Positions 3,429 through 31,933 of a stretch of DNA of 64,000 nucleotides are shown here, piece by piece. The stretch is from Deltaproteobacteria bacterium HGW-Deltaproteobacteria-6. GTDB lineage: Bacteria; Desulfobacterota; Syntrophia; Syntrophales; Smithellaceae. The notes beneath the pieces are model-generated. The model saw nothing but the letters and a program-made list of their open reading frames with translations, made no database searches and was not told the DNA's origin. The DNA is taken from NCBI GenBank assembly GCA_002840435.1, contig PHAT01000008.1, forward strand, positions 62,001 to 126,000, given 5' to 3'. The number at the start of each line of letters is the position of its first letter. Position 1 is the stretch's first letter. Made by a program: the position numbers and the translations under genes.

Positions 3429-3499
3429 CATCCTATCGGTTAATTGATGATTTACAATAATGGTTGTTCCATAGGTTAGTGATAGGATGATCCTATGAC
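3429..3499 (-). promoter_or_regulatory. Shared bipartite promoter element, copy 5 (phasin-like gene 1)
   Basis: Read on the minus strand: an inverted repeat ATAGG-N5-CCTAT at 3482-3496, 24 bp, a -35-like TTGTAA (3452-3457), 17 bp and a weak -10 (AGGATG at 3429-3434; TAGGAT one base closer fits better). The inverted repeat here is a perfect 7-bp palindrome around one base. A second TAGG-N5-CCTA lies at 3423-3435, over the -10, so this copy has two potential operator sites. The most divergent of six copies, but with identical spacing. Confidence 0.6.
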
Positions 3500-3575
3500 A
3501 AAAAATAATGAAAAGACCTCAATGCTGCTTCCGGCAAGAGACAATCCGCATTCACTGGATATCCGCATTGTCTGT

Positions 3576-4031
3576 TTATGATTCCACCCCACAGGCTTCC
3601 GGCCTGACTAAAAAAATTGAGCAGGGCATGGCTCTGATGATTTCATCATTGCTTCCCCCGACCAGAAAATGCTCTATGCGGCTTTCTTCGTGGCTGCGGA
3701 GGACCAGCAGATCAACATGTTCTTCTTTTATCGTTTGAAGAATAACCTGCGACGGAATGCCTTCTTTAACGATTTCCTTAATGTCCAACCCCTTCTTTTT
3801 TTCCGCATGGATTATTTTATGCAACTCTGATTTTCGCATTTGCATGTCCCTTTTGAGCTCCTCTTCAATTGCGACCATCGGCAGGTTCCAGCCTTTCAGC
3901 CAGGTCGTGTCCATGACGTGCAATATGGAAAGTTCAGTTTGATACTTTTGGGACAGTGAAATTCCGGCTTTCAAGGTATTATCACAATACCTGGTCAGCC
4001 AGCTCACGGCGAGAATGCGTCTGAAATCCAT
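3576..4031 (-). CDS. Universal stress protein (UspA family)
   Basis: This 151-residue single-domain Usp protein has the N-terminal strand RRILAVSW, the hydrophobic ELSILHVMDTTW strand, a charged helix rich in Lys/Glu, then DLLVLRSHEES and a C-terminal FLVGGSNDEIIRAMPCSIFLV. The nucleotide-binding loop is a variant of G-x2-G-x9-G-S/T; the first glycines are missing (SHEESRIEHFLVGGS), so ATP binding is uncertain. The start has a GGGAGTG site. It lies 41 bp downstream of wrbA and probably shares its promoter, which carries the common 71-bp element. Its first 50 residues are clearly related to the N-terminus of the fusion protein at 29072-29878 (VSWL, MDTTW, GWN shared). Role: cytoplasmic stress or starvation response. 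Confidence 0.9.
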   Translation of the reverse strand: MDFRRILAVSWLTRYCDNTLKAGISLSQKYQTELSILHVMDTTWLKGWNLPMVAIEEELKRDMQMRKSELHKIIHAEKKKGLDIKEIVKEGIPSQVILQTIKEEHVDLLVLRSHEESRIEHFLVGGSNDEIIRAMPCSIFLVRPEACGVES

Positions 4032-4072
4032 TCTTTCACTCCCTTCCTGTCATTGTGTATGCGCCGTACGTT

Positions 4073-4690
4073 TTAATCTTTGCGGGACAGTTTTGCGGCT
4101 ATCTGGGCGACATGCTTTCCCTGGTATCTTGCCGCATTCAGTTCATTTTCACTGGGCATTCTTTCACCCTTGCCGCCGGCTATCGTGGACGCGCCATACG
4201 GAGAAGAACCGGTGATTTCATCAATGCGCATTTGCCCTTCAAAAGCATAAGGCAGGCCGACAATGACCATTCCCTGATGAAGCAGTGTGTGATGAAAACT
4301 GAGAATGGTTGATTCCTGACCGCCGTGCTGCGTTGCCGAGCTGACAAAGACACTTCCCACCTTCCCCACGAGAAGCCCCTTCGCCCAGATCCCTCCGGTG
4401 GCATCGAGAAACTGCCGCATCTGGCCGCACATGTTGCCGAAACGCGTCGGTGTGCCGAAAATAACGGCATCGGCCGAAACCAGATCATCTACAGTACAGA
4501 TATCAATATGAGCCGTTTCCTTTTGAAAATTCAAAGCCCCCATTTTCTTTAAAACATCTTCCGGTAATGTTTCGGGCACACGGCATATTTTGACCTCCGC
4601 GCCTTTGACTTTTTTTACCCCTTCGGCCACGGCTAAAGCCATTTTGTAGATGTGGCCATACATCGAGTAATAGGCAATCAGAACTTTCAT
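4073..4690 (-). CDS. wrbA: NAD(P)H:quinone oxidoreductase WrbA
   Basis: This 205-residue flavodoxin-fold protein matches WrbA throughout. It has the N-terminal FMN phosphate-binding loop [12 protein letters not shown], the [18 protein letters not shown] segment that covers the flavin and forms the tetramer contact, [17 protein letters not shown], and the conserved [10 protein letters not shown] near residue 165. WrbA proteins catalyse two-electron reduction of quinones and protect against oxidative stress. The ribosome-binding site is GGACAGGAG before the ATG. The gene is first in a probable wrbA-usp operon; its upstream region holds a copy of the shared promoter element at 4788-4858, giving a leader of about 90 nt. 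Confidence 0.95.
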
Positions 4691-4787
4691 ATTTTTGTTC
4701 TCCTGTCCTTTGATAGTCTTTTCATTTGAATCATGATAACGGTTCTTTTTATCGTTATCCTTCTTTCAGCGATATCTTTCTGTTTGA

Positions 4788-4858
4788 ATTCAATAATAAA
4801 GGGTTGCAGAGAACAATACTGATTAATTGTAAGCAAAATAGCAGGCAATGCCTACCAT
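4788..4858 (-). promoter_or_regulatory. Shared bipartite promoter element, copy 1 (wrbA-usp)
   Basis: Minus-strand reading: inverted repeat GTAGG-N5-CCTGC at 4841-4855, then 24 bp containing GCTTACAATTAATCAG, then -35 TTGTTC (4811-4816), 17 bp and -10 TTGAAT (4788-4793). The element occupies the middle of the 326-bp gap between wrbA and the pirin gene; I see nothing else convincing in that gap. Confidence 0.75.
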
Positions 4859-5016
4859 ACCGGCGGGATTTCCCGGTTTCTCCCGTTTGGACTACAGGGA
4901 TACGGAACCGTCCCGCCCCCTGCGCGGGGAAACCGACGTCCAATGCCCCGCTTTGCACACATCAATGGATAATTTTTTTGCCGCTTGACTGAATAAACTT
5001 TCCTGCCGGCTGCTTT

Positions 5017-5841: not shown

Positions 5842-5911
5842 CCGCCCCCCTGTAAACTGATGCTAAAACCTTCCCTGTCCGTCTGTTTCCATCCCCCGCC
5901 CGCTGATTCAT

Positions 5912-7072: not shown

Positions 7073-7075
7073 GGG

Positions 7076-7459
7076 TCAGCCCCCTGCGCAGGCAGCCCCG
7101 GGATCCTCCATTATTTTGTCGGGCGGAATCTCCCGTTTTGGAGCGGGCATAGCCGCCCTGGGACGAAACATGAAAAATCTGCCGGTTCTGACGGAAACCG
7201 CGCTCGAAATTACAACCGATCGCCGCGATTCCGGACGACCGCAATCCGGGGAGGAAATGGAACCGTGGTTTCTTTCGACGGGACCGGCAGGGGCGGCGAT
7301 CCTATTCCCGTAAATAACGGTATAGAGAATTCCCTTTCTGTTTTGCCTCGCGCCGCAAATGCCATACTTCGATTCTGATATTTCGCATTCATGGACGCAC
7401 AGGTAACAATGAACCTTTTGATGATCCATTTTATTCCAGAAAAGGGCTTCTTTAATCAT
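7076..7459 (-). pseudogene. amrS: Decayed AmmeMemoRadiSam-system radical SAM enzyme (amrS) remnant
   Basis: The first 55 codons read as a normal AmrS N-terminus: KEALFW, CYLCVHECEI, KYGICGARQNRKG, LYTVIYGNRIAAPAGPVE. A one-base shift near 7270 moves the family sequence to another frame, where KPRFHFLPG, then GIAAIGCNF, can be read to about 7140. In that stretch the CxxxCxxC cluster has become C-N-F-E-R-G-F-R, with the two later Cys and the following Trp all changed to Arg by T-to-C changes. A further shift restores a piece resembling IPPDKI near 7105. The rest of the gene, about two thirds, is missing. The open frame still runs 127 codons, overlaps the phosphoribosyltransferase stop by 8 bp and stops 3 bp before the next start, so it may persist only to couple translation. 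Confidence 0.8.
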
Positions 7460-8219
7460 GACGTTTTCCCCTGCGATTCTTTTTAAATTTTTCCAGATCC
7501 TGCATCACTTCATCGTCAGTCAGATCATGCCATTCCTCATAGAAGCCCGCCACAGCGAAAGGATATGTGGACGAGACAACCGGACACACAACCTGGTCAG
7601 CCTCTCTGCTGACAATTTCCCAACCGTTCCCCGAAGCAACCGGCGCCGCCGCCACAACCGCTTGTGCTCCGCGCCGGCCAAGGGACCTGACCGCGGCCAC
7701 CATCGTATAGCCTGAAGCTATTCCATCATCCACAATAATGGCTTTTTTCCCTGTTACTGACGAAGGCTCCAGAACCGCCTGGAATATTTTTTTGCGTCTC
7801 GCAATTTCAGCACTCACTATTTGGGCATGGTGTCTGATCTGTGCCTCCGTCAAATGCAGTTCGCGCACCAGCGGTTCATTGAGGACAATGATGCCGTCTT
7901 CCGTGACGGCGCCATAGCCGGCCTCCGTATGATGAGGAATCGGTATTTTTCGCGGCGCGATGATATCCAGATCACAGTCGAGTTCCCTGGCAACTTCAAC
8001 TGCGACGGGAACGCCCCCGCGCAGGACGGCAAACACAACCACGTCGCTTTCCCGAAAGGATATCAGACGCAAAGCGAGATAACGCCCCGCATCCTTTCGA
8101 TTGCGGTATGAATACTCAGGATAAGGCATCATCACACACCAGGTGATACGGCGAATGTTCTGCTCCATTATTGACCCGGCCGGACGATCTCCCGGCCGAA
8201 ACGGTCCGGATTCTAACAT
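7452..8219 (-). CDS. Phosphoribosyltransferase-domain protein
   Basis: The type I phosphoribosyltransferase fold is clear: YRNRKDAGRYLALRL, VVFAVLRGGVPVAVEVA, and the PRPP-binding loop KKAIIVDDGIASGYTM near residues 160-175. This group of stand-alone PRTases resembles a DosR-regulon protein of mycobacteria (Rv0571c) and occurs next to universal stress proteins; its reaction is unknown. The ATG at 8219 gives 255 residues, but homologues usually begin closer to the YRNR segment, so the ATG at 8168 or the ATG pair near 8132 may be the true start; none has a strong ribosome-binding site. The gene leads a unit controlled by the shared element at 8240-8310, with the predicted transcription start about 14 nt before the first ATG. 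Confidence 0.9.
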   Translation of the reverse strand: MLESGPFRPGDRPAGSIMEQNIRRITWCVMMPYPEYSYRNRKDAGRYLALRLISFRESDVVVFAVLRGGVPVAVEVARELDCDLDIIAPRKIPIPHHTEAGYGAVTEDGIIVLNEPLVRELHLTEAQIRHHAQIVSAEIARRKKIFQAVLEPSSVTGKKAIIVDDGIASGYTMVAAVRSLGRRGAQAVVAAAPVASGNGWEIVSREADQVVCPVVSSTYPFAVAGFYEEWHDLTDDEVMQDLEKFKKNRRGKRHD

Positions 8220-8239
8220 CCACGAAAGTATGTATATTA

Positions 8240-8310
8240 TATTTAGTCCTGCGCCCGGTAACAGGCAATGAGGATTAAATGGAAGTATAATAGCAGGGAT
8301 AACCTACCTG
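8240..8310 (-). promoter_or_regulatory. Shared bipartite promoter element, copy 6 (phosphoribosyltransferase unit)
   Basis: Minus-strand reading: GTAGG-N5-CCTGC (8293-8307), 24 bp including TTTAATCCTCATTG, -35 TTGCCT (8263-8268), 17 bp, -10 TAAATA (8240-8245). Spacing is identical to the other five copies although the linker sequence has diverged. Confidence 0.72.
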
Positions 8311-8353
8311 ATCTTTTTATTCACACCGGCAGGGGATGATCCGGTCCCGTATG

Positions 8354-9487: not shown

Positions 9488-9985
9488 TCAGCGGGAACGA
9501 TCAAGCTTTTTCTGAAGCTGAAGCAGTAACGGAGCCTGACCTGGCAGTATCTTGCTAAGCGCGATGTCCACCGGAAGCCAGGCTGCCTGATCGACTTCTG
9601 GAAACTCCTGCAGCAGCCCGGAGTTTGCAGGCCACTCCAGCGAAAATGTATTACTCTTCAACCGGGCGGGATCAAAATCCCCCGCGACGGCCCAGGCAAA
9701 AACGATTTTACCGCTGGGCTGACGAACAGGGTCCAGGGCAATGAAATTGCCGCCGGGCGTCATACCCGTTTCTTCTTCAAATTCACGTCTGGCCGCAGTG
9801 AGCGGCTCTTCGGGAGGCTGGAATTCCCCTTTGGGAATCGACCAGATCCCTTCATCTTTTCCGGTCCATAACGGCCCGCCGGGATGAACCAGCAGCACCT
9901 CGAGCCTGCCGTCCACGTTCCGGTAAAGAAGCAGCCCCGCGCTCTTTTTAGCCACAGACACACCCGTCTCCACCTGCTGTTCCAT
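9488..9985 (-). CDS. NUDIX hydrolase
   Basis: This 165-residue protein has a complete NUDIX box, GEFQPPEEPLTAARREFEEE followed by TG (G-x5-E-x7-REFEEETG), at about residues 53-75, so metal-dependent pyrophosphatase activity is expected. KSAGLLLYRNVDGRLEVLLV precedes it and WSIPKGE leads into the box, as in the family of MutT-like DUF-type NUDIX proteins. The substrate cannot be predicted. I use the ATG at 9985; a TTG just before it is in frame. It lies 13 bp after the YHS-domain gene and 15 bp before the dehydrogenase gene. Confidence 0.92.
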   Translation of the reverse strand: MEQQVETGVSVAKKSAGLLLYRNVDGRLEVLLVHPGGPLWTGKDEGIWSIPKGEFQPPEEPLTAARREFEEETGMTPGGNFIALDPVRQPSGKIVFAWAVAGDFDPARLKSNTFSLEWPANSGLLQEFPEVDQAAWLPVDIALSKILPGQAPLLLQLQKKLDRSR

Positions 9986-9998
9986 CAACGTTTCACCG

Positions 9999-10460
9999 TC
10001 ATTTTCCGCCGGAGAACTTCACCCAGTTTACATCCGCCTTCCTGATATGGCCGGGAATATCCCTGCTCCATTTTTCATGCGCGGACCGGCTGCAATTCAG
10101 ATAAAGTTTCCCGTCAACCATCTGCCATACATCAGGGTCCGTGCGGGCTTGACGACCCTGCGACATGGCCCAGGCGCAATAGCCGTCATACTGCGGCGCG
10201 TATTTTTCCGGACCGGCCGTAAATAAATCCAGATTTTCTTTCGTCGAAAAATGCCAGGTAAGGCCATGCCATTTATACGTAAATGACGCACTGCCTTTCA
10301 CCGGTTTGCCGGCCGTAAAATAGGAAACAGCATCATACCCGCTGATGGCCGCGTCATCCATCCATGCCATTCCGGCAGCCGTCCCGCCGGCGCCGGTCAA
10401 AGACAGGAACACAAACGAACTGATCATTAAAATTTTGTCTATCGCTTTCTGTAATTTCAT
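9999..10460 (-). CDS. Exported YHS-domain protein
   Basis: The 153-residue product has an N-terminal hydrophobic segment (signal peptide or anchor, about 8-30), then the YHS motif region DAAISGYDAVSYFTAGKPVK, FTYKWHGLTWHFSTKENLDL and YAPQYDGYCAWAMSQG. YHS domains are small metal-associated modules, often with copper transport or haem proteins; exported versions have no established role. The GGGAGGTGA site is 5 nt before the ATG at 10460, which rules out the upstream in-frame GTG. It is the first gene of a likely three-gene unit with the NUDIX hydrolase and the sugar dehydrogenase. The 200 bp upstream hold no clear copy of the shared promoter element. Confidence 0.88.
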   Translation of the reverse strand: MKLQKAIDKILMISSFVFLSLTGAGGTAAGMAWMDDAAISGYDAVSYFTAGKPVKGSASFTYKWHGLTWHFSTKENLDLFTAGPEKYAPQYDGYCAWAMSQGRQARTDPDVWQMVDGKLYLNCSRSAHEKWSRDIPGHIRKADVNWVKFSGGK

Positions 10461-10660
10461 ATCGCTCACCTCCCCGTACGTTTTTTATCGGATTAACCTA
10501 TTGACTGTCACCATTATTCCATCCAGGAACCCAACTTCTCAGGTCAGGCATTTTAAAAAACTCATGACATCCTTTGCAGACTTCCCGGTCTGTCAGCCTG
10601 TCCGTCCCGAGGCCTTCCCTCTGAAGGACTCCGCGCTGCCGGGATGCCCTGAAAAGAAGC

Positions 10661-18086: not shown

Positions 18087-18198
18087 ATTTCATATCTCCT
18101 TCATAATTTAACTTTTGCCGCTTCCAATTTTTACACGTTGAAGCGGGACAACGATTGTCATGGTCGTCATCTTTTCTTTGATATTTTTCTCTTCCGGC

Positions 18199-18269
18199 AG
18201 ACTAATGTGAGCTGGGGACAAAAACAATACTGATTAAGTGTGAGGGAAACAGTAGGTAATGCCTACCAT
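18199..18269 (-). promoter_or_regulatory. Shared bipartite promoter element, copy 2 (phasin-like gene 2)
   Basis: Minus-strand reading: inverted repeat GTAGG-N5-CCTAC (18252-18266), 24 bp ending in CTTAATCAGTA, -35 TTGTTT (18222-18227), 17 bp, -10 TAGTCT (18199-18204). It lies in the 502-bp gap between the phasin-like gene and the cytochrome P460 gene. Confidence 0.75.
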
Positions 18270-18299
18270 ATAAGATAATACTAACAAATTCAGGGGGCT

Positions 18300-18588: not shown

Positions 18589-19134
18589 TTACCGGCGGGG
18601 ATAACCGGTAAAGATAAAATCTTTCTGTTTCACAGCCGTATGGCATTGATGGCAGTCCTGAACGAAAGAGGCATCTTTGCCAAACGGTGCAAAGGTTGAG
18701 GTTTTGGCATCATACACAAACCGCGCATATCCCCAGCCATCGGAATCACGGAATCTTTGGGAATCCTTGATAATGAACTCAACTCTTTTGAGAACGTCAG
18801 GCTCCAGAGCAGCGGGAAAATCGGGATTTTTCCTGTCCGACCAGCCTATTTTTACGATGGTGGATCCGTCGGGAAAAAGTTTGCCGTTGCCGGGGATGCC
18901 TTCCTGATAAGCGTTGATCATGACCGGATTGCCGAGGATGATCCTGACTTCATGGTTGTCCGTCCTGTAGCTCGGCGCGATGACCTGCCAGGTTTCATAT
19001 CCCCTGATCTCGGAAAAAGATATTCCGTTTGGCGCTTTCAGTTCATATTTATTCTGTGCGACGACGGTGATGCCACCCGCCATCATGAGCATAGACGCGA
19101 CAAGAAACATGACAAAAATAATCATTTTTTTCAT
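18589..19134 (-). CDS. Exported cytochrome P460 family haem protein
   Basis: The 181-residue product starts with a signal peptide or anchor (KKMIIFVMFLVASMLMMAGG). It has the P460 pattern ISFSEIRGYETWQVIAPSY, NPVMINAYQEGIPGNGKLFP, KIGWSDRKNP, and the c-type haem site CHQCH near residue 160. True P460 proteins oxidise hydroxylamine or NO using a haem cross-linked to Lys; many family members are plain electron carriers. The GAGGAG site favours the ATG at 19134. It is the last gene of the formate dehydrogenase operon, 77 bp after the gamma-subunit gene, so it may carry electrons from the enzyme or protect it. This arrangement is unusual as far as I know. Confidence 0.88.
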   Translation of the reverse strand: MKKMIIFVMFLVASMLMMAGGITVVAQNKYELKAPNGISFSEIRGYETWQVIAPSYRTDNHEVRIILGNPVMINAYQEGIPGNGKLFPDGSTIVKIGWSDRKNPDFPAALEPDVLKRVEFIIKDSQRFRDSDGWGYARFVYDAKTSTFAPFGKDASFVQDCHQCHTAVKQKDFIFTGYPRR

Positions 19135-19211
19135 GACCGGCATCTCCTCGTTGTCGAATATTGTTTTGCAGGTTTTGTGTCGCCCGGGTGATCAAAGACG
19201 GCTTGCGGCCG

Positions 19212-20201: not shown

Positions 20202-20216
20202 AAAGCCTCCTCTTTT

Positions 20217-20405
20217 TCAGCGATCGGTCTGCACAAGTTTCAAGCGATTGATCAATTCCTGCTGCTGGTTTTGCACCAGCACCGGATCCTGAACGCCCTT
20301 ATAAACACCTGGTTCATGCATGGTGACGCTGCGGGGTTCCGGAGAACATCCCGAAAATCCCATCAAAGCAATCAGCGCCAATATCATAGTGTATTTGAGC
20401 TTCAT
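20217..20405 (-). CDS. Small lipoprotein inside the formate dehydrogenase operon
   Basis: A 62-residue protein with a short signal peptide and lipobox GFSGC (Cys20), followed by SPEPRSVTMHEPGVYKGVQD and a Gln-rich helix. Its ATG overlaps the stop of the beta-subunit gene by 4 bp, so expression is coupled. I recognise similar small lipoproteins in formate dehydrogenase clusters of some proteobacteria but cannot assign a role. The residue after the lipid Cys is Ser, so outer-membrane sorting is possible. Confidence 0.82.
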   Translation of the reverse strand: MKLKYTMILALIALMGFSGCSPEPRSVTMHEPGVYKGVQDPVLVQNQQQELINRLKLVQTDR

Positions 20406-21010
20406 GGATTTTTCCCCCTGCCTGATTTAAAATTGTAAGCGGTTTCCCATCCCCATGCTTCGGGGCGGCTGCCGCGCCGGGTAATGCGTTCCAGATATAT
20501 CTCGGAAACGACATTGCCGTCCCCGGCCAGCAGGGCCTTGGTGGCGCACATCTCGGCGCACAGCGGCAGTTTGCCCTCGGCAATCCGGTTGCGGCCGTAT
20601 TTTTTATACTCTTCAACCGTATTGTCCTTCCCCGGCCCTCCCGCGCAGAAAGTGCATTTATCCATTTTGCCGCGGGCCGCGAAAGAATTCTCTTCCGGAA
20701 ACTGCGGCGCGCCGAACGGACAGGCATAGAAGCAATAGCCGCATCCGATGCACAGATCCTTGTCATGCAGCACAATGCCGTCCGGAGTTGTATAAAAACA
20801 ATCGACTGGACAGACCGCAGCGCAGGGCGCGTCCGTGCAGTGCATACAGGCCACGGAGATGGATTTTTCGCCGCGCTCCCCGTCCTTCAGGGTAACCACA
20901 TGACGCCGGTTGATACCCCACGGCACATCATGCTCATTGTTGCAGGCCGTAACGCAGCCATTGCATTCAATGCAGCGTTCGGTGTCACAGAGAAATTTCA
21001 TTCTAGCCAT
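20402..21010 (-). CDS. fdhB: Formate dehydrogenase beta subunit, four [4Fe-4S] ferredoxin
   Basis: This 202-residue protein has four cysteine clusters in the order of FDH/DMSO-reductase beta subunits: CIECNGCVTACNNEH, CMHCTDAPCAAVCP, CIGCGYCFYACPFG and CTFC with CAEMC further on. It carries electrons from the molybdenum subunit to cytochrome b. It has no C-terminal membrane helix, unlike E. coli FdnH. The AAAGGAG site supports the ATG at 21010; the upstream ATG at 21028 overlaps that site. It lies 78 bp after fdhA, and that gap holds strong inverted repeats (21031-21061). Confidence 0.95.
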   Translation of the reverse strand: MARMKFLCDTERCIECNGCVTACNNEHDVPWGINRRHVVTLKDGERGEKSISVACMHCTDAPCAAVCPVDCFYTTPDGIVLHDKDLCIGCGYCFYACPFGAPQFPEENSFAARGKMDKCTFCAGGPGKDNTVEEYKKYGRNRIAEGKLPLCAEMCATKALLAGDGNVVSEIYLERITRRGSRPEAWGWETAYNFKSGRGKNP

Positions 21011-21030
21011 GGTTCGTCTCCTTTTCATAA

Positions 21031-21061
21031 GCGGAAATTATTTTCCGCAGAAAATAATTTC
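21031..21061. repeat. Overlapping mutually exclusive hairpins between fdhA and fdhB
   Basis: Two inverted repeats share bases: GCGGAAA-TTAT-TTTCCGC at 21031-21048 (7-bp stem, 4-base loop) and GAAATTATTTT-CCGCAG-AAAATAATTTC at 21034-21061 (perfect 11-bp stem, 6-base loop). They cannot form together. They lie inside an operon, just upstream of the fdhB ribosome-binding site, so a role in mRNA processing, stability or translation of fdhB is more likely than termination. Confidence 0.6.
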
Positions 21062-21088
21062 GCCGGGCATTCATCTCGCTCCCCGGGC

Positions 21089-23977
21089 CTATGCCGGTGT
21101 AATGCGGCAAAGCGTTGCCTTGGTTTCCTGCATCTGTGTGACGGAATCGTATCCATAGGTGGTGGCGGTATTGCAGGATTCACCGCGGACATAGGGCGCC
21201 AGACCTTCCGGGTAGCGGTCATAAAGATCTTTCCCCTGAAACCAGCCACCGAAATGGAAGGGCGTCCAGACGGTTCCGGGGCCGACCCGCTTTGTAATCA
21301 TGGCCCGCACTTTGATCCGGCCGCCTTCGGCGCCTTCAAGCCAGATATACTGCCAATTCGTGATATGGGCATCGGCTGCGTCTTTCGGATTGATTTCCGC
21401 AAACATCTCCGGCTGAAGCTTGGCCAGCCAGGGCTCCGAACGCTGTTCCTCGCCGCCGCCTTCAAATTCCGTCAGCCGGCCGCTGGTGAAAATCAGTGGA
21501 TATTTGATGCTGTGGTTGACCGACTGAATCGATGCGTAGCGCGTGGGCAGCCGAAAGAACGCTTTGCGATCGGCATACGTCGGATATTTTTTGGCCAGGT
21601 CGAAGCGCGGGGTATACAGCGGCTCCCGGTGGACGGGAATAGGATCAGGATAGGTCCATACGTTGCAGCGGGCCCGACCGTTGCCGAAAGGCACGCAGCC
21701 GTGTTTAATCGCTACCCGCTGAATGCCGCCGGAGAGATCCGTCTTCCAGTTTTTGCCTTCCGCTTCCTTCTTTTCGGCTTCGGTCAGATCATTCCACCAG
21801 CCCAGTTTTTTGAGGATATCCGCGGTAAATTCCGGGTAGCCGTCTTTGATGTCCGATCCTTTTGCATACGCGCCGCTGGCGAGCAGGTTCTGGCCATTAT
21901 AGTCCGTTCCCCAGGCGGCCCGGAAAACAGAGCCGCCCTCGGCCACGGGCTTGCTCGGATCATACAGGATGGGTGTGCCCGGATGCTTCATTTCGGGTTT
22001 GCCCCAGCAGGGCCAGGGCAGTCCGTAATAGTCGCCCTTGCAGGGGCCCGCATCGGCTTTCAGAGTCAGGGTATTGAAAGTTCCCCGGTATTTGGCATGC
22101 ATCTTGAGGCGCTCCGGGCTCTGGCCCGTATAGCCGATCGTCCAGGCACCGCGGTTAATTTCCCTCAAAACATCTTCAATGACTGGTTCATCGTTTACGA
22201 CCTTGATGTTTTTAAACATCTGATCGGCAAAGCCCAGTTTCCTGGCCAGTTTGTAAAGAATAACATGGTCCGGCAGGGATTCGTAAAGCGGCTCAATGAT
22301 CCTGTCACGCCACTGCAGCGACCGGTTGGACGCCGTTGCAGAGCCTGCGCTCTCATACTGTGTGGAGGTCGGGAGCAGATAGGTGTCGTTTTTACGATCG
22401 CTCATAACCGACATATGCGTCGGGTACGGATCCGAGATCACGACCATATCCAGTTTCTCCAACGCCTTTTTCATTTCCACGCCGCGTGTCTGGCTGTTCG
22501 CGGCATGCCCCTGAAAGATAACGGCGCGAAGGTTGTCTTTTTGCGAGAGATTATCCTTGGCCTCCATCACCCCGTCGATCCACCGCGAAACCGGAATGCC
22601 GGGGATGTTCATGGTATAAGCCATTTTGCCGCCGCCGGCGTCATACTGTCTGGTCATGTCAAAACGGGATTTGATCCATTCGTAATCAACGCCCCAGACT
22701 CTGGCCCAATGCTGCCAGGAACCTTCGGCCAGGCCGTAATAGCAGGACAGCGTATGGCAGTTCGGCCCGACATCCGTTGCGCCCTGCACGTTGTCGTGGC
22801 CGCGGAAAATATTGGCGCCGCCGCCCGACATGCCGATGTTACCCAGGGCCAGCTGGAAGATGCTGAAGAGACGGACCGTATGGCTCCCCATATGGTGCTG
22901 GGTTATGCCCATGCACCAGACAATGGTGCCGGGCCGGTTCTGCGCCATCGTTTGGGCGATCTCGAATACCTGCTTTTCCGGTATCCCGGTGACATTCTCC
23001 ACTTCCTGGGGCGGCCATTTCTGCACTTCTTTGCGGATGTCATCCATGGCATAAACCCGCTGGGCGATAAACTCCTTGTCTTCCCAGCCGTTCTTGAACA
23101 CGTGCCACAGCAGGCCGTAGATGAAGGGAATGTCCGTGCCCGACCGGATGCGGGCGTAAATGTCGGCATGGGCGGCCGTGCGGGTAAAGCGCGGATCGAC
23201 CACAATCATCTTCGCCCCTGCTTCCTTGGCGCGCAGGACATGCTGCATAGCAACGGGGTGCGCTTCAGCGGCATTGCTCCCCAGAAACAGCATGGCCTTG
23301 CTGTTTCTCATATCGTTATAGGAATTGGTCATCGCGCCGTATCCCCAGGTATTGGCCACACCGTCCACAGTCGTGGAATGACAGATGCGCGCCTGGTTAT
23401 CGACGTTGTTGGTGCCCCAGAAAGCGGCGAATTTCCCCTGCAGGTAAGCGCCTTCATTGCTCGCTTTGGACGATCCGCAGAAGAATAAGGCATCCGGCCC
23501 CGATTCCCGCCTGATTTTCAAAAGTTTGTCGCCGATTTCATTGATCGCCTGCTCCCAGGACAGACGGGTCCAGACGCCATTGACCAGCTTCATGGGATAT
23601 TTGATGCGCTTGTGGCCGAAGCCGTGGCCTCTGGCGGCTGCACCCTTGGCGCAGTGTGCTCCGAGATTTAAAGGCGACTCGTAGTCCGGCTCCTGGCCGG
23701 TCCAGACGCCGTTTTGAACTTCGGCGATAATGCCGCAGCCGACGGAACAGTGGGTGCAGATGGTGCGCCGGTACTGGGTCTGCTCATCGGGCTTCGGGAA
23801 ATTTCTCTTTTCCTCGTCGGTTGCCTGCCTCATACAGGCCAGCGGCAGCAGGCTGATCAAGGCGCCGCTTCCCAGCGCCACCCCGCCCCGGATCAAAAAA
23901 GTCCTCCGGTTGATGCCATCGGGAGATGCAGGTTCGGAGGAAACCCGCTCGAACCGTTTTTTATTGGATGATTTCAT
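21089..23977 (-). CDS. fdhA: Formate dehydrogenase alpha subunit, molybdopterin, Tat-exported, Cys type
   Basis: From the ATG at 23977 (TGGAGGA site) the protein has 962 residues. The Tat signal is GINRRTFLIRGGVALG. The N-terminal [4Fe-4S] cluster is C74-x2-C77-x3-C81-x27-C109. The active-site segment GTNNVDNQARICHSTTVDGV has Cys199 where E. coli FdnG has selenocysteine, so no Sec codon is used. GSNAAEAHPVAMQHVLRAK and GHDNVQGATDVG fit the FDH molybdopterin domains; the C-terminal domain is complete. It oxidises formate in the periplasm. The operon also supplies chaperone, ferredoxin, beta and gamma subunits; moeA for cofactor synthesis is at 39661. Confidence 0.96.
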   Translation of the reverse strand: MKSSNKKRFERVSSEPASPDGINRRTFLIRGGVALGSGALISLLPLACMRQATDEEKRNFPKPDEQTQYRRTICTHCSVGCGIIAEVQNGVWTGQEPDYESPLNLGAHCAKGAAARGHGFGHKRIKYPMKLVNGVWTRLSWEQAINEIGDKLLKIRRESGPDALFFCGSSKASNEGAYLQGKFAAFWGTNNVDNQARICHSTTVDGVANTWGYGAMTNSYNDMRNSKAMLFLGSNAAEAHPVAMQHVLRAKEAGAKMIVVDPRFTRTAAHADIYARIRSGTDIPFIYGLLWHVFKNGWEDKEFIAQRVYAMDDIRKEVQKWPPQEVENVTGIPEKQVFEIAQTMAQNRPGTIVWCMGITQHHMGSHTVRLFSIFQLALGNIGMSGGGANIFRGHDNVQGATDVGPNCHTLSCYYGLAEGSWQHWARVWGVDYEWIKSRFDMTRQYDAGGGKMAYTMNIPGIPVSRWIDGVMEAKDNLSQKDNLRAVIFQGHAANSQTRGVEMKKALEKLDMVVISDPYPTHMSVMSDRKNDTYLLPTSTQYESAGSATASNRSLQWRDRIIEPLYESLPDHVILYKLARKLGFADQMFKNIKVVNDEPVIEDVLREINRGAWTIGYTGQSPERLKMHAKYRGTFNTLTLKADAGPCKGDYYGLPWPCWGKPEMKHPGTPILYDPSKPVAEGGSVFRAAWGTDYNGQNLLASGAYAKGSDIKDGYPEFTADILKKLGWWNDLTEAEKKEAEGKNWKTDLSGGIQRVAIKHGCVPFGNGRARCNVWTYPDPIPVHREPLYTPRFDLAKKYPTYADRKAFFRLPTRYASIQSVNHSIKYPLIFTSGRLTEFEGGGEEQRSEPWLAKLQPEMFAEINPKDAADAHITNWQYIWLEGAEGGRIKVRAMITKRVGPGTVWTPFHFGGWFQGKDLYDRYPEGLAPYVRGESCNTATTYGYDSVTQMQETKATLCRITPA

Positions 23978-24012
23978 GAGTGTCATTCCTCCAGTCTCTT
24001 ATCGATCGTTGT

Positions 24013-24210
24013 TTATTGACCCGCCGTTTCATAATATTTTTTGATATGAGCCGTCAGCCGGTAACCCTGATCCGCAGGCTTCGGCTCTTTGTCGGGAGTG
24101 GCAGGATCGGACACAATTTTTTTGCTAACCCCCGCGAAGAGGGCGGATCCGCCCAGCAACACCGCTCGCTTAAGGAATGTCCGCCGGCCGCTTGAGACTT
24201 TGATTTCCAT
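24013..24210 (-). CDS. Small Tat-signal protein of the formate dehydrogenase operon
   Basis: The 65-residue protein from the ATG at 24210 (AAGGAG site) contains SSGRRTFLKRAVLLGGSALF, a Tat signal, then a short polar tail (GYRLTAHIKKYYETAGQ). Proteins of this size and make-up precede the catalytic subunit gene in FDH3-type clusters and are called formate dehydrogenase region Tat-target proteins. Role unknown; it may assist export or assembly. The start falls 5 bp before the end of the chaperone gene's stop region, effectively coupled. Confidence 0.88.
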   Translation of the reverse strand: MEIKVSSGRRTFLKRAVLLGGSALFAGVSKKIVSDPATPDKEPKPADQGYRLTAHIKKYYETAGQ

Positions 24211-24214
24211 CGCA

Positions 24215-24874
24215 CTATTCTCCTTCCCCGGTAAAATTATGGTTTTTTGCCGCATCAGGCAGAAAGACGCTTTCGGTTTCCAGAAATGATCCGCCGAATC
24301 GGCCTGCGGACCGGTAAAAAGCGCCGTTTGCGGCTTCCTCGATATCGCTAAATAAATGCATCATCCACGGCGTGATATGCCGGTTAAAGAATGCCGTCTG
24401 TTCGACATAATCGATGCCGCTTTGTTTCCGGGTAATGATGGCCATGATTTCACAGAGCGCACCCGCATGATCTTCCGAGTCATGCCAGTCCGCCTGTCTT
24501 ACAATACCAATGTGCATCAGATCGGCGCGCAGAGCGGCCAGCGGCGCCGACTGAATCTTTTTTTCCGTATACCAGGACTCATAGGGGATGATCCGGCCGC
24601 AACCGAGACCGATGAAAAGCCGGTTGTATTCTTTTTGAACGGCGGCCGGCTGAAAGGCCTGACCTGCCAGCTTCAGCGCGGCAAACGCATTTTCCAGCTT
24701 CTCCGGAAGCCCTGCATCCCAGTATAAAGTCATCAGGATCTCCATCATCACTTCGGACGGAGGGCCTTGCAGAAGAGATGCCAGCAGGGCATAGCCGTCA
24801 GAGCGCAGGGCTGCATAGGAGTTGATCCAGGACCACGGATGGTTCTTTTTTATCGTACCGGAAATTGATTCCAT
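24215..24874 (-). CDS. TorD-family molybdoenzyme chaperone
   Basis: The 219-residue helical protein matches the TorD/DmsD fold: YALLASLLQGPPSEVMMEIL near the start, VQKEYNRLFIGLGCGRIIPYESWY in the middle (the E-Y/F-x-R-L-F-x-G-x-G-P-x-S/E region), then DHAGALCEIMAIIT and a C-terminal helix ITPWMMHLFSDIEEA. Such chaperones bind the Tat signal of a molybdoenzyme until the cofactor is in place; here the client should be FdhA. It overlaps the preceding ferredoxin gene by 25 bp. Confidence 0.92.
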   Translation of the reverse strand: MESISGTIKKNHPWSWINSYAALRSDGYALLASLLQGPPSEVMMEILMTLYWDAGLPEKLENAFAALKLAGQAFQPAAVQKEYNRLFIGLGCGRIIPYESWYTEKKIQSAPLAALRADLMHIGIVRQADWHDSEDHAGALCEIMAIITRKQSGIDYVEQTAFFNRHITPWMMHLFSDIEEAANGAFYRSAGRFGGSFLETESVFLPDAAKNHNFTGEGE

Positions 24875-26349
24875 GTTTTCATATCCTCAGAAAGCAGTGC
24901 ATCCCGCGTCCGGCAGGTGCGGCACATTTGCAGGCGGCTTAATTGCCGTTCGTTTCCGAACATCCAATGGCCGGCAAGGTTGTTTTGGATGCGGTTGATC
25001 ATGGCCTGGGAGGCAAAAGGAATACCGCATGCAATACACCGGGCCGTTTGAGATTCATGGAGCGCCACGGCGGTTTCCAGCCTGTCCGGATCACAGAGCA
25101 TACGAGGCTGCAAACGAATGGATTTTTCGGGGCATATGTCCTCACACAAACGGCACTGGTGGCAGCGGGATTCAATCAATTCGAGTTTCGGCACGCTGCC
25201 TGCCGCAAGCAGGGCTTTGGAAGGACAGGCATCAACGCAGGCCATGCATAAGGTGCAGGTCGAATCGACCACGATCGTCCCGAAAGGAGAGCCATCCGGA
25301 AGGGGCAGTGAGGGCTGCTGCGCGTTGAACCGGTCATGGAGCCGCTGTACCGCCATTCTGAGCAGTGTTCGTTTATCAGGTTGATGAGAAAACTCATCCG
25401 GCAATGGAAAAGGCTCATCCGCTGGCATTGCACAGTCCGGTACCACAAAAATTTCTTTTTCAGACTGATGGTTGTCGGGTGGAACGGTAAAACGAATTCT
25501 GTCCTCGGGCGCTCCCAATCCGCGCAGGATGGCCCGGCCCAGCCGGGTCTGCCACCGGACCGCGTCAATCACGGCCGGAGTATTTTCCGGATCACAGACG
25601 ACAACCACATTGCCTGCCCCGTATATCAGAGCGGCCAGCAGCATTTCCGCGCCGACATGGCTGATATGATCCATTACCATGATTTTATGATCGGGGCTGC
25701 ATTCATCCATCGGGAATGTTGCATACCGGTCGTCTTCATCATCCGAAATGATCAGTGTTGTGACAGGGGCATGGCCGGTCAGCAGGCGCCTTAAAGCATC
25801 CAGCCGCTCTGCTTGGGAGGGGTAAACCAGCTGAATGGCGTCCGTCGGACAAACCAGAGCGCAGCTGCCGCAACCCCGGCAAATATCGTGGTTAAAGGAT
25901 ATTCTCCCTCCGGCGGACTGGATGGCTTTCTGCGGACAAACCGCAAGACATTGCCCGCAGCCGCTTTTGCGGGAGCGTCCATGCAGACAACGGGTCTCCT
26001 GAAAAAGCGTAAATTGCGCCACGGACACGGACGGCAAATTTGTGGATTCATCCGCTTCGTTTCCCCGTCCGGCATGGTTCGGGAGAACGGATTTGTCGGA
26101 CGATAGAGCCGCATTGCCGCCGCAATGCCGGATCTTCATCTGATGAAGCATGTCGGCGGTTACAACACCGTCGAGCGTCTGGAAGGTTCGACAGTTTCCG
26201 TTAAGATCGCTCAGGTCGTCTTGAAAATTGAATTCGGCAGAATGGAAATCGATGGTGATGCCTGAGGCCGTCTTGTAGCCTCCTGCCGCAACCGGATCTT
26301 TCCCGTCACCGGAAAGCTCAGCTTGTTCTCCTTCCATTGCATTTTTCAT
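24850..26349 (-). CDS. Multi-cluster 4Fe-4S ferredoxin-type protein of the formate dehydrogenase operon
   Basis: The 499-residue cytoplasmic protein has two ferredoxin pairs. The first (about 120-175) has CGQCLAVCP and CRGCGSCALVCP. A central domain without cysteine clusters follows (about 190-330; HISHVGAEMLLAALIYGAGN), resembling the delta-subunit-like domain of hydrogenase/heterodisulfide partners. The second pair (about 365-420) has CTLCMACVDACPSKAL and CHQCRLCEDICPEKSI. Near the C-terminus CIACGIPF and CRTCRTRD look like a small metal site. It is the first gene of the operon and has a copy of the shared promoter element at 26443-26513. It may feed or take electrons during FDH maturation, or link to other partners; not established. 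Confidence 0.88.
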   Translation of the reverse strand: MKNAMEGEQAELSGDGKDPVAAGGYKTASGITIDFHSAEFNFQDDLSDLNGNCRTFQTLDGVVTADMLHQMKIRHCGGNAALSSDKSVLPNHAGRGNEADESTNLPSVSVAQFTLFQETRCLHGRSRKSGCGQCLAVCPQKAIQSAGGRISFNHDICRGCGSCALVCPTDAIQLVYPSQAERLDALRRLLTGHAPVTTLIISDDEDDRYATFPMDECSPDHKIMVMDHISHVGAEMLLAALIYGAGNVVVVCDPENTPAVIDAVRWQTRLGRAILRGLGAPEDRIRFTVPPDNHQSEKEIFVVPDCAMPADEPFPLPDEFSHQPDKRTLLRMAVQRLHDRFNAQQPSLPLPDGSPFGTIVVDSTCTLCMACVDACPSKALLAAGSVPKLELIESRCHQCRLCEDICPEKSIRLQPRMLCDPDRLETAVALHESQTARCIACGIPFASQAMINRIQNNLAGHWMFGNERQLSRLQMCRTCRTRDALLSEDMKTWNQFPVR

Positions 26350-26442
26350 ATCATTTTCCCGGCATGTAAGATATTCCTTTAGCCATTTTGATTGAGGTGA
26401 CGACGTTAACCGCTGGCTTCTTCTTTCCGGAAACCCTATGGT

Positions 26443-26513
26443 AAATTATGCCGTCGTGAGGCTGAACACAATGATGATAAAGTGTAAGCAGATTGGCAGG
26501 TCAAGCCTATCAT
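26443..26513 (-). promoter_or_regulatory. Shared bipartite promoter element, copy 4 (formate dehydrogenase operon)
   Basis: Minus-strand reading: ATAGG-N5-CCTGC (26496-26510), 24 bp including GCTTACA, -35 TTGTGT (26466-26471), 17 bp, -10 TAATTT (26443-26448, the best -10 of the six). Leader to the ferredoxin gene is about 90 nt. Confidence 0.75.
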
Positions 26514-26638
26514 CCCGTTTGGACAAACAGCCGCAAAGCAAAATTGGGAAACTCAGCATGATGGGAAATAGGATCCGGGGCGCGTTCCTGTTCGGAAAGC
26601 AGGTAAGATGCCGGCTTCCGGACGCAAAGGCCGTGAGA

Positions 26639-28982: not shown

Positions 28983-29071
28983 GGAGCAATCTCCTTTAAC
29001 TGATGATAACGGTGAACATGCTAATCGACTGTATTTTCTGCGCGGGCAAAGGTCTCCATGCTGTCTTTTAC

Positions 29072-29878
29072 CTAATGCATGTGCCCTTTCTTCATATCAT
29101 GCTTGGCAGCAGGATTTTTAGCCCCTTTATGATGTTTGTCATGCGGATCTTTGCCGGCTGCGTCAAGATAGATCCGCTCCACATAATGTGTATATTCAAC
29201 ATACGCTGCGACAAACTCCCTGCCCTGCTCGACACTGTCATCCTTATGCCGGTAAGTCGCTGCCGCACGCTCGAAACGATTTTGAATACCGGCTGCAACA
29301 TTGTCCGTGACCATTTTGACCAGGGCATCAGCAGAGCCGCCTGCCAGGGATCTATCTGCTTGCGTAATGACGGGCAAAACGTCACCTGCCGGTTTCAATC
29401 CGGTAAAAGGCGCTCCTTCTCCGTCCCGATGAATCTTGACGAGGGTCGCAAAAAAATGATGCTCCGCCTGGTCGGCGTTTTTCTTGCCCTGGGCGCGCTC
29501 GGCCCTGGCAAAGGCCGTACGAACGGCTTTCTCATCTTTTTGTTTCACCCACTTGAGCACCGGCGTGACATCTTTGGCCGCCAGGGCTTTCCTCGCATCC
29601 TGAATAACAGGTCCGTCCAAAGTATCGCAATGGGCGGAGGCAAAGCCATAAATCAGGAGAATCAGGGCCATTACAACGGCAGCAAGCAAAAGCGGCCGGG
29701 CGAAAACCGATTTCTTCTTCAGCGTGGCATTCCAGCCATTGGGCCATGTGGTATCCATGATGTTAAAAACCGAAAGTGCAGCTTTATGATTTGGAGCCAG
29801 GGAAAGTCCATACGGCATGGTCTTGCTGCAATTTCTATTCAACCAGCTGACATCAAGAACCGGTTTGGTGTTATTCAT
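29072..29878 (-). CDS. Fusion of a universal-stress-protein fragment with a membrane-anchored DUF6448-like protein
   Basis: The ATG at 29878 has an AAGGAG site and gives 268 residues. Residues 1-50 align with the start of the Usp at 3576-4031 (VSWL, R, C, G, SL, MDTTW, GWN conserved) but the Usp domain stops there, before its nucleotide-binding part. From about residue 53, LKKKSVFARPLLLAAVV begins a hydrophobic stretch that looks like the signal peptide of an exported protein, ending in ASAHCDTLDGPV. The remainder (DARKALAAKDVTPVLKWVKQ, HFFATLVKIHRDGEGAPF, TGLKPAG) is the DUF6448 pattern, with a His/Lys-rich tail. The signal peptide is now internal and likely a membrane anchor. The Leu before KKK is a CTG, one base from ATG. 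Confidence 0.78.
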   Translation of the reverse strand: MNNTKPVLDVSWLNRNCSKTMPYGLSLAPNHKAALSVFNIMDTTWPNGWNATLKKKSVFARPLLLAAVVMALILLIYGFASAHCDTLDGPVIQDARKALAAKDVTPVLKWVKQKDEKAVRTAFARAERAQGKKNADQAEHHFFATLVKIHRDGEGAPFTGLKPAGDVLPVITQADRSLAGGSADALVKMVTDNVAAGIQNRFERAAATYRHKDDSVEQGREFVAAYVEYTHYVERIYLDAAGKDPHDKHHKGAKNPAAKHDMKKGHMH

Positions 29879-29933
29879 GATCTTTCTCCTTATGGCATTA
29901 TTCTTAACAGCGGTTCCCTGTCCTTCATCGATG

Positions 29934-30353
29934 CTATTTAACCGGGAAGTTATCCGGATTGATAACAAACCATATATTGTTCACCCCCTGGCCGTTGGTT
30001 TCGCCGGGATTCTTGTCATTAACCCAGTAATAGAGCGGGTAGCCTCTGAAGGTTGTCTGCTTCAGGCCGTCTCCTCTGGTAATCGTTCCAAAATCCGCCG
30101 CCTCTGTTCCCTGGGGAGCGGCAACCGCTTCCCGGTAATAGACGGGCCATTTTTCCAGACAAGGACCGGCGCAGGCGCTCTTTCCTGCTGAATCCTTTTT
30201 AAACATATACAGGGCATGACCTTCCGTATCCGTAAGATACTTTCCAATTCCATCCTTTTTTTGAATTTTAACGGCATGATGCATCCCCATGACGGCGCTG
30301 ATTCCCAACACCAGCACCCCGACTACAACCAGGAACATTGTGATTTTTTTCAT
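29934..30353 (-). CDS. Exported COG4315-type repeat protein
   Basis: The GGAG site 6 nt before the ATG at 30353 sets the start; the product has 139 residues. It has a signal peptide or anchor (KKITMFLVVVGVLVLGISAV), then the family repeat: GKYLTDTEGHALYMFKKDSA, CAGPCLEKWPVYY, and GLKQTTFRGYPLYYWVNDKN followed by PGETNGQGVNNIWFVI. These secreted proteins of unknown function have a typical G-x-Y-L-x-D-x-x-G-x-x-L-Y pattern and a Cys pair. It lies between a Usp and the DUF6448 fusion. Confidence 0.9.
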   Translation of the reverse strand: MKKITMFLVVVGVLVLGISAVMGMHHAVKIQKKDGIGKYLTDTEGHALYMFKKDSAGKSACAGPCLEKWPVYYREAVAAPQGTEAADFGTITRGDGLKQTTFRGYPLYYWVNDKNPGETNGQGVNNIWFVINPDNFPVK

Positions 30354-30490
30354 TTCCATCTCCTTTTTTATTGATGATTGCTTCTCAAGATTGGAACGGT
30401 CAGGGATGCTTTTATCAAGATGCCCGATCGGAGCTTCGTCATTATCCGGTAAAAGCGCCCCTCCGGCCGCCGTTTTAAATTTCACAAAGA

Positions 30491-30943
30491 TCAGCTTCTC
30501 ACCAGCAACACGGGGCATTTGGCTTTCTTCATGACTTTATCGACAACACCGCCCATTAAATTGCTCAAAATGCCCGTCTTTCCGTGGGATGCAATGACGA
30601 TTAAATCAATGCCTTTTTCTTCCTGTTCTTTGAGGATCTCTTCATAAGGGATGCCTCTTTTCGTATCGTAAATAATTTCGATGCCGGAGTCTCCGTCCAT
30701 AACTTTTTTAGCTTCCTGCTGGAGTTTTTCCTTGGCATTTTTGATGCTGTCTTCAAGAATTTTCCGCACATCCCCTTCATTCAGACAATAATCAACGGCA
30801 CATTGCTGAAATCCATCATCGATCACATGCAGGAGATAAATCTTGGCTTTATTCTGCAAAGCAATGTCGATCGCCTGTTTCATTGCGTTATCCGCATAAA
30901 CAGAAAAATCCGTCGGTACTAAAATTTTCTTCGGTGCAAACAT
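30491..30943 (-). CDS. Universal stress protein (UspA family)
   Basis: A 150-residue single-domain Usp protein. KKILVPTDFSVYADNAMKQA and AKIYLLHVIDD form the first strands, and DLIVIASHGKTGILSNLMGG followed by VVDKVMKKAKCPVLLV gives the complete G-x2-G-x9-G type nucleotide-binding loop, so ATP binding is likely. AAAGGAGG lies 8 nt before the ATG at 30943; a start six bases upstream is too close to it. It is 129 bp downstream of ferritin and probably in the same unit. Confidence 0.95.
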   Translation of the reverse strand: MFAPKKILVPTDFSVYADNAMKQAIDIALQNKAKIYLLHVIDDGFQQCAVDYCLNEGDVRKILEDSIKNAKEKLQQEAKKVMDGDSGIEIIYDTKRGIPYEEILKEQEEKGIDLIVIASHGKTGILSNLMGGVVDKVMKKAKCPVLLVRS

Positions 30944-31072
30944 AATCATGTCCTCCTTTTTTTTCTTATGTGGTTTTTAAACCAGGCGTCCTATTTCTCA
31001 CTCGTCTTCGCCGGATCGCTCATGCGCGTGTGTCAGCGGAGGAATCCGGATCGTTTCAGCCGTATCTAATTT

Positions 31073-31609
31073 TCACGCAACAACATTGTAAGCCGCAGGA
31101 TTAAGCGGCGATCCCGCCGGAAAGACGCGTGCCGCGAGTTCCCGATCCACCATCAGGATGCCTTCCTTGGAGTCTTCCACTCTGATCAGATCCCGACAAA
31201 CTTTATCCGTGTTTTTTTCTTCTTCAATCTGTTCGTTTAAAAACCAGGAGAGCAGGGGCTCCGAAGTATAATCATTTTCCTCACGGGATATTTTGGTCAG
31301 ATTGATGATCTTCCCCGTAATAAATTTCTCATGTTCATAGGCGTTCTGCCAGGCTTCCAGTGGATTCTTCCATGATGTTTTGATCTGCTTGATATCCAGC
31401 AGGGTCACCTGCCCGCCCCGGTCAAGAATGTGATCAAAAAATTTCATGGCATGGATCATTTCTTCATGCGCCTGACAACGCATCCAGTGCGCCATGCCGT
31501 CCAGATTCTGGGAATGAAAATAAGCAACCATTGATAAATAAACATAGTAGGACACCAATTCATGCTTGATCTGATCATTCATGGCCTGCCTGACTTTTTC
31601 TCCAATCAT
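31073..31609 (-). CDS. Ferritin (FtnA type)
   Basis: This 178-residue protein has the ferroxidase ligands of non-haem ferritins: Glu17 (KHELVSYYVY), Glu50 and His53 (AHEEMIHAMKFF), and a Glu in YEHEKFITGKI, with EQIEEEKNTD in the fourth helix. It stores iron in a 24-mer and lacks the haem-binding Met of bacterioferritin. The GGGAGGG site is close to the ATG. It is the second gene after the shared promoter element at 31863-31933, 31 bp behind a 60-residue protein gene. Confidence 0.95.
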   Translation of the reverse strand: MIGEKVRQAMNDQIKHELVSYYVYLSMVAYFHSQNLDGMAHWMRCQAHEEMIHAMKFFDHILDRGGQVTLLDIKQIKTSWKNPLEAWQNAYEHEKFITGKIINLTKISREENDYTSEPLLSWFLNEQIEEEKNTDKVCRDLIRVEDSKEGILMVDRELAARVFPAGSPLNPAAYNVVA

Positions 31610-31640
31610 TATGTTTACCCTCCCTTCAGGATATTATTTC

Positions 31641-31823
31641 TTACAAATCGTTCGTCATTTCCATCTTGGCCATGTTCACGTATTCCGGCGGCGCCTGCAG
31701 GAGGGCCACGACATTGGACTTGTGTTCTATGGCCGGAACATCATCTTGAAGAAACCGGCCCACAAAATTGTTGATGCGGCCTTTCAACTGATGCCATTCC
31801 TGTTCCGAATCCTGTTGATTCAT
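31641..31823 (-). CDS. Unrecognised 60-residue protein, first gene of the ferritin unit
   Basis: The ATG at 31823 has a strong AAGGAGG site. The protein is soluble and acidic-neutral: NQQDSEQEWHQLKGRINNFV, then GRFLQDDVPAIEHKSNVVAL and PPEYVNMAKMEMTNDL. I know no family. Its position directly behind the shared promoter element and 31 bp before ferritin suggests a role with iron storage or stress, or a leader for the operon. Confidence 0.75.
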   Translation of the reverse strand: MNQQDSEQEWHQLKGRINNFVGRFLQDDVPAIEHKSNVVALLQAPPEYVNMAKMEMTNDL

Positions 31824-31862
31824 GATGTGTCCTCCTTGTTCAATTTTGTTTGTTTTTATAAT

Positions 31863-31933
31863 GGAATATCGAATAGCACCGGTAATGACAATACTGATTA
31901 ATTGTAAGCAGAGTAGTAGGTAATGCCTACTAA
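31863..31933 (-). promoter_or_regulatory. Shared bipartite promoter element, copy 3 (ferritin unit)
   Basis: Minus-strand reading: GTAGG-N5-CCTAC at 31916-31930, extended to a perfect 7-bp repeat TAGTAGG/CCTACTA (31914-31932), 24 bp with GCTTACAATTAATCAG, -35 TTGTCA (31886-31891), 17 bp, -10 TATTCC (31863-31868). It lies in a divergent intergenic region with the protease gene on the other strand. Confidence 0.78.

Follow-up and report, generated by a model that had tools for sequence, protein, structure and literature searches.

The window analysed here is a 64,000-nucleotide stretch of the genome of Deltaproteobacteria bacterium HGW-Deltaproteobacteria-6 (G000:C8:62001-126000, where G000 denotes the own genome, 4.09 Mb in 53 contigs). 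It carries six minus-strand copies of a compound element placed upstream of genes. This element is probably a sigma-70-type promoter that depends on an activator and serves a stress regulon in Syntrophales; control would run through an array of octamer repeats and a response regulator of the P0001 family. The element, its conservation, the promoter spacing, the gene set, and the co-distribution and synteny of the regulator were all computed directly. They point to a real, conserved regulon of the two-component stress kind, with a well-supported candidate regulator and an unusual operator.

The organization of the element was derived from a core-hit set of 97 sites (22 genomes, 0.79 Mb of loci). 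The consensus over these sites reads TGGTAGnnwTTnCCTACCAwTnnnCTnnCAwTTAATCmkyATTGynTT; 17 bp then separate a TTGyNT box from TAnwTT. Comparison of octamer columns revealed that the octamer CTACCATT occurs in one inverted and three direct copies, set in an 11-bp register. The inverted copy (columns 2-9) correlates at 0.96 with the direct copy D1 (columns 17-24). The correlation with D1 is 0.86 for D2 (columns 28-35, offset +11) and 0.53 for D3 (columns 39-46, offset +22), the least similar repeat. At no other offset in a scan of offsets 0-43 does similarity to D1 exceed 0.45. The first-pass annotation had split the element into an inverted repeat and a promoter, with GCTTACA and TTAATCAG as separate, partly conserved boxes. 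The dyad and the promoter stand, but the operator is really a four-repeat array running into the -35, which had been missed, and the two boxes dissolve into degenerate repeats of the octamer (correlations 0.86 and 0.53, respectively). Since the dyad and both boxes are the same octamer in 11-bp steps, they form one array ending at the -35. In some remote copies, the left arm of the inverted repeat is less well conserved.

The promoter boxes were assessed separately. The -35 box is TTGTNT-like, with TTG in 21 of 22 sites. At the -10 box, which is TAnTTT-like, TA is found with a 17-bp spacer in 11 of the 17 non-window sites and at any other offset in at most 3; these sites had been found with matrices lacking the -10 columns. 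TAnnnT occupies the -10 in 49 of 80 further sites, a circular profile, as their loci were mostly chosen by matches to model R2, which contains the -10; the 17-site test is cleaner. The -10-like hexamer reported 17 bp from the -35 is therefore real, but it is weak, and copy 1 has no consensus -10. The element has a sigma-70-type promoter layout, with -35 and -10 boxes about 17 bp apart, and appears to be an activator-plus-promoter unit. No sigma-54 -24/-12 box was noticed by eye in the window copies, for which no formal scan was made.

In the window, the layout reported in the first-pass annotation is present at all six places: on the minus strand, 24 bp lie between the CCTAY end and TTG, followed by 17 bp to the -10 position. 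With an 82-site matrix, the six sites are the top six of the window (scores in Table 1), and no further position on either strand exceeds -5.9 bits. All 82 sites come from other genomes, yet they were gathered using the matrix of the 22 sites of R2, so this ranking is a consistency test of partial independence and not a blind one. Five copies are strongly alike in the alignment, whereas copy 1 is diverged. When left out of a matrix of the six, copy 1 scored an unconvincing 3.06 (rank 9). With the 22-site matrix it reached 0.8 bits, still at rank 6, and the larger site set rescued it (again rank 6 in the window). Its right part resembles, by eye, the element before the universal stress protein (Usp) gene in genome G002. 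Taken by itself, the exact pattern GYAGGN5CCTAY lacks specificity, with 11 forward and 5 reverse matches compared with 24 and 34 for a reversed-pattern control. Nothing above 17 bits was matched when the first 28 stretches were shuffled, and Rfam gave no match on the window at the gathering threshold.

The genome scan named in the first-pass annotation as a refuting test found the elements to be mostly intergenic and so did not refute the proposal. Only 5 of the 97 core hits fall for the most part within open reading frames (ORFs) of 150 aa or more, in sequence that is 79% coding. At least two of these five ORFs look over-extended (the front of a WrbA ORF and a 238-aa ORF starting inside an element pair). 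For 71 of the 97 core hits, an ORF of 80 aa or longer begins on the same strand within 500 bp, compared with 26% of random positions. In the window, the ORFs that overlap the five strong elements are all short (72-106 aa). Some elements form back-to-back, oppositely facing pairs (L110:19531-19712, at C8 ~41.5-41.7 kb; L169:5872-6053; L253:11940-12066; L254:12569-12695). In G000 and G003 the upstream ends of paired elements are separated by 29 bp; in G080 and G081 they overlap.

Beyond the window, R2, built with -10 columns from 22 sites of which the own genome supplied 14, has 17 matches at E≤0.01 in that genome. An earlier model, R1 (53 columns), matched at E≤0.02 in 3 of 20 genus genomes, the own genome counted. 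Larger scans, covering 51 genomes at the family and 155 at the class level, were run with the stricter filters applied to more than 40 genomes. At the family level, 14 of 51 genomes have the element at E≤0.01. Ten of them are strong-motif genomes with best E<1e-8 (G000, G003, G007, G022, G025, G027, G028, G030, G034 and G048), and four have weak matches only (G014, G024, G026 and G044; best E 2.9e-4 to 0.0093). G002 has no match at E≤0.01, but an element of 31.0 bits lies before its Usp gene; the counts were left unchanged. At the class level, the element is present at E≤1e-5 in 24 of 155 genomes.

The genes behind the elements form a recurrent set. In the window they comprise phasin-like ORFs (assigned by eye), WrbA, Usp, a phosphoribosyltransferase, a molybdopterin oxidoreductase cluster and ferritin, with MsrAB further downstream of copy 4. 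Elsewhere in the own genome, a BON-type lipoprotein (named by eye), an RpoH-like sigma factor and a receiver-PAS-HisKA_3 kinase follow. The stress-gene set recurs in other genomes of the order, where elements precede genes for WrbA, ferritin, Usp, desulfoferrodoxin, rhodanese and a multihaem cytochrome, as well as a rubredoxin-like protein scoring below the Pfam cut-off. Such a set would fit anaerobes responding to oxygen or oxidative stress. WrbA itself is no predictor of the element, as only 3 of 80 WrbA loci from many phyla carry it. The mostly intergenic elements before recurring stress genes thus support the earlier proposal that a new regulon uses an activator site near -68.

The first-pass annotation had suggested a NarL/LuxR or Fis-type factor, and the best-linked regulator, by both co-distribution and synteny, is a predicted one of the NarL/LuxR type. 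P0001 is a 294-aa receiver-linker-GerE protein encoded on contig C4 of the own genome, outside the window. Its domains (PF00072, 48.6 bits; PF00196, 49.4 bits; both above cut-off) assign it by sequence to the NarL/FixJ (LuxR-HTH) class of response regulators. In some family members a PAS domain lies between receiver and GerE, and a coiled coil is apparent by eye. The canonical receiver residues D17, D62 (the putative phospho-acceptor) and K112 are invariant among 11 aligned orthologues. The recognition-helix stretch TAVDFHRKN is identical in all 11. Among the 25 of 52 NCBIfam matches listed for P0001, none reached the curated cut-off, and no named equivalog (NarL, FixJ, GacA etc.) was seen.

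Relatives of at least 64% identity are found in G000, G002, G003 (as a split ORF), G007, G022, G025, G027, G030 and G034, that is, in 8 of 10 strong-motif family genomes versus 1 of 41 others (Fisher p 6e-7; the Fisher p values take no account of phylogeny). G002, the genome counted as having the regulator without the element, is the one with an element before its Usp gene. None of the four weak-match genomes has a relative at this identity. At the class level, relatives at E≤1e-45 are widespread (76 of 155 genomes), and 17 genomes match P0001 at this level in each of its two halves. By the two-half criterion, which was set after the tables had been seen, an orthologue is present in 16 of 24 motif genomes versus 1 of 131 others (p 5e-15).

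Gene order provides further evidence. A histidine kinase, a single-domain receiver and the P0001-family regulator are consecutive in several genomes. In G007, a single strand carries, in order, an element, ferritin, WrbA, an element, Usp, the histidine kinase, the single-domain response regulator and the regulator. The kinase beside the regulator is of the dCache-PAS-HisKA type in G007 (dCache below the Pfam cut-off) and of the MASE3-PAS type in G062, G126 and G127. In 8 of 18 orthologues (G129, G062, G126, G072, G027, G030, G079 and G080; five families of the order), an element of 22-54 bits starts -10 to +33 bp from the stop codon of the regulator gene. This count was obtained with the genome's own sites removed from the matrix and leaves out a C-terminal fragment of G082; it replaces an earlier count of 8/15, for which the matrix held sites of the same loci. 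Among 15 gene families found near elements in at least three genomes, not every one of which was scanned, P0001 is the sole recognized DNA-binding group.

Several observations weigh against this assignment. Eight of the 24 motif genomes (G028, G048, G081, G084, G085, G124, G128 and G136) lack a two-half orthologue at E≤1e-45; in G081 the gene runs up to the end of its contig. The regulator gene has no element behind it in 8 of the 18 orthologues, including that of the own genome (G000, G002, G003, G007, G022, G025, G034 and G127), and the stop-codon matches in G081 (12.6 bits) and G135 (11.9 bits) are weak. The phylogeny-blind p values and the after-the-fact orthologue criterion count here as well. 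Moreover, co-distribution was compared for two DNA-binding rivals only, and the comparison covered two of the nine GerE proteins of the own genome (P0001 and a CBS-LuxR protein). A regulator near a regulon could also be co-inherited without controlling it.

This last point leads to an alternative that we regard as unlikely: P0001 would be a passenger of the island, and another activator, such as a winged-helix regulator of the OmpR/PhoB type, would bind the tandem repeats. An array of three direct repeats, stepped by 11 bp and adjoining the -35, is characteristic of the OmpR/PhoB family and would suit such a factor, a further point against P0001. The frequent location of the regulator in or near regulon clusters and the motif genomes without a detected orthologue also fit. 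However, no other DNA-binding group was recognized among the recurring families, as far as these were scanned, and elements start at the stop codon of the regulator gene in 8 of 18 orthologues, which span five families. Less probable still is the sharing of the element by two factors, one occupying the dyad and the other the D2-D3 block that covers the -35: D3 is indeed the least similar repeat and the two parts differ by eye, but similarity to D1 above 0.45 is confined, over offsets 0-43, to the inverted arm and to offsets +11 and +22. LysR promoters have a layout of recognition and activation binding sites, which is also seen when the dyad GTAG-N7-CTAC (at -68) is taken together with the weaker half-sites reaching the -35, so an OxyR-like LysR-type activator might bind here; the dyad spacing, the 11-bp half-site register, and ferritin and desulfoferrodoxin among the targets agree, but we consider this very improbable and rejected it, as LysR relatives are distributed independently of the element (8 of 10 strong-motif versus 30 of 41 other family genomes, p 0.50; none at E≤1e-25 in the element-bearing G007 and G028), the only PF03466 gene of the own genome at E≤1e-5 is unlinked to elements (on C5), and the D2 and D3 repeats keep the direct orientation instead of being inverted. 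The CBS-LuxR protein was also rejected, its full-length orthologue being present in 1 of 10 strong-motif versus 4 of 41 other genomes (p 0.68). This protein, in which a CBS domain is combined with a LuxR-type C-terminus, and two further CBS-like proteins are encoded upstream of the element preceding the RpoH-like sigma gene (L177:7526-9412, 9550-10520; C4 ~138.5-141.5 kb).

With the P0001 family as the preferred regulator, the circuit might operate as follows. We infer phosphorelay, binding and activation, while the signal, oxygen or oxidative stress, is a guess from the targets. The regulator would be phosphorylated, the likely source being the adjacent histidine kinase (dCache-PAS or MASE3-PAS) together with the single-domain receiver. 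In its phosphorylated form it would bind the four CTACCATT octamers, one of them inverted, in their 11-bp register, with its proximal subunit touching the weak -35 (TTGTNT) and recruiting RNA polymerase. Genes for stress and oxygen defence would thereby be switched on, namely those for WrbA, ferritin, Usp, phasin-like proteins, desulfoferrodoxin, the RpoH-like sigma factor and probably MsrAB, and the receiver-PAS-HisKA_3 kinase among the targets is a likely feedback arm. Going further, with somewhat less confidence, we lean towards an undescribed oxygen/stress regulon spread patchily over five Syntrophales families, with a receiver-(PAS)-coiled-coil-LuxR regulator, a new type of operator and a stop-codon element coupling the regulator to the next gene. 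Because operator, promoter, gene set, and one candidate regulator and kinase are named together, the whole circuit could be tested with one purified protein. The analysis also suggests a candidate binding site for one member of the large group of receiver/PAS-LuxR proteins.

Parts of this arrangement have parallels in known systems. Promoters of the BvgA type (NarL/FixJ class) have a strong upstream inverted site followed by weaker in-register sites to the -35; the array-to-35 layout is alike, while letters and orientation differ. The low-oxygen-activated (lxa) locus of Burkholderia likewise holds Usp and phasin-like genes in one island. DosR/DevR of Mycobacterium and OsdR of Streptomyces are LuxR/NarL-class response regulators. 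These actinobacterial systems differ from the Syntrophales one in that the latter has a long linker or PAS insert and a four-repeat array with a single inverted member. According to PMC5069765, DosR/DevR and OsdR regulons, as here, consist of Usp-rich redox genes partly clustered near the regulator, with palindromic upstream sites; the OsdR site given there is AGGGCCGATCGGCCCT, unlike CTACCATT, and TGGTAG...CTACCATT is not a GGGCC-type palindrome as for DevR/OsdR. NmpRSTU of Myxococcus xanthus, according to PMC11841059, combines a multi-component phosphorelay and an oxygen-related regulon with the dyad GCGCA-N5-TGCGC. The phosphorelay presumed here, the oxygen-related gene set and the N5 dyad are similar, but NmpRSTU is NtrC-like and sigma-54 dependent, with other site letters, whereas the present element has sigma-70-type -35 and -10 boxes. 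The open-access literature, outside which most subscription papers fall, yielded no described regulon or stress response regulator of such kind for Smithella, Syntrophales or Syntrophus and no match to the motif words; none of four such words sought appears in the main text of a Desulfovibrio response-regulator survey (PMC3333781).

Table 1. Element copies in the window, the repeats and boxes of copy 6, and the genes behind copy 5 (window positions)
Feature	Position	Strand	Remarks	Score (bits)
Copy 1	3426..3502	-	diverged, lacks a consensus -10; followed by small ORF 3102-3392, which looks phasin-like by eye	20.4
Copy 2	4785..4861	-	array, -35 and -10; upstream of WrbA-type flavoprotein 4073-4690, Usp 3576-4031	58.8
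Copy 3	8237..8313	-	upstream of phosphoribosyltransferase-domain gene 7452-8168 or 8219	54.1
Copy 4	18196..18272	-	upstream of small ORF 17805-18086, then YgaP-TM protein, MsrAB 16156-17256	64.5
Copy 5	26440..26516	-	upstream of redox gene run 18589-26349	55.7
Copy 5, Fe-S protein gene	24850-26349
Copy 5, NarJ-like gene	24215-24874
Copy 5, molybdopterin oxidoreductase gene	21089-23986
Copy 5, Fe-S protein gene	20402-21028
Copy 5, cytochrome b561 gene	19212-20201
Copy 5, cytochrome P460 gene	18589-19143
Copy 6	31860..31936	-	upstream of small ORF 31641-31823, ferritin 31073-31609, Usp 30491-30949	59.4
Copy 6, inverted octamer half-site	31927..31934	-	columns 2-9
Copy 6, direct octamer D1	31912..31919	-	columns 17-24
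Copy 6, direct octamer D2	31901..31908	-	columns 28-35
Copy 6, direct octamer D3	31890..31897	-	columns 39-46, touches -35
Copy 6, -35 box	31886..31891	-	TTGTCA
Copy 6, -10 box	31863..31868	-	TATTCC

The genes following copy 4 (small ORF, YgaP-TM protein and MsrAB) and the redox gene run following copy 5 would each form one operon. Small ORFs 3102-3392, 17805-18086 and 31641-31823 sit directly behind elements and look phasin-like by eye; the first had no match in Pfam (searched as 3102-3431) or NCBIfam (as 3102-3392). At 29072-29968 the window encodes a DUF6448 protein, the N-terminus of which resembles, by eye, the start of the Usp 3576-4031, so that it may have arisen by fusion of another gene with the remains of a Usp gene. 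The 127-aa ORF at 7076-7459 looks like the front of a longer protein encoded elsewhere in the genome (L111:3653-4714) and is possibly a split gene. Judged by its WrbA, which shares 88% identity with the Smithella sp. SCADC protein, the host is probably Smithella-like.

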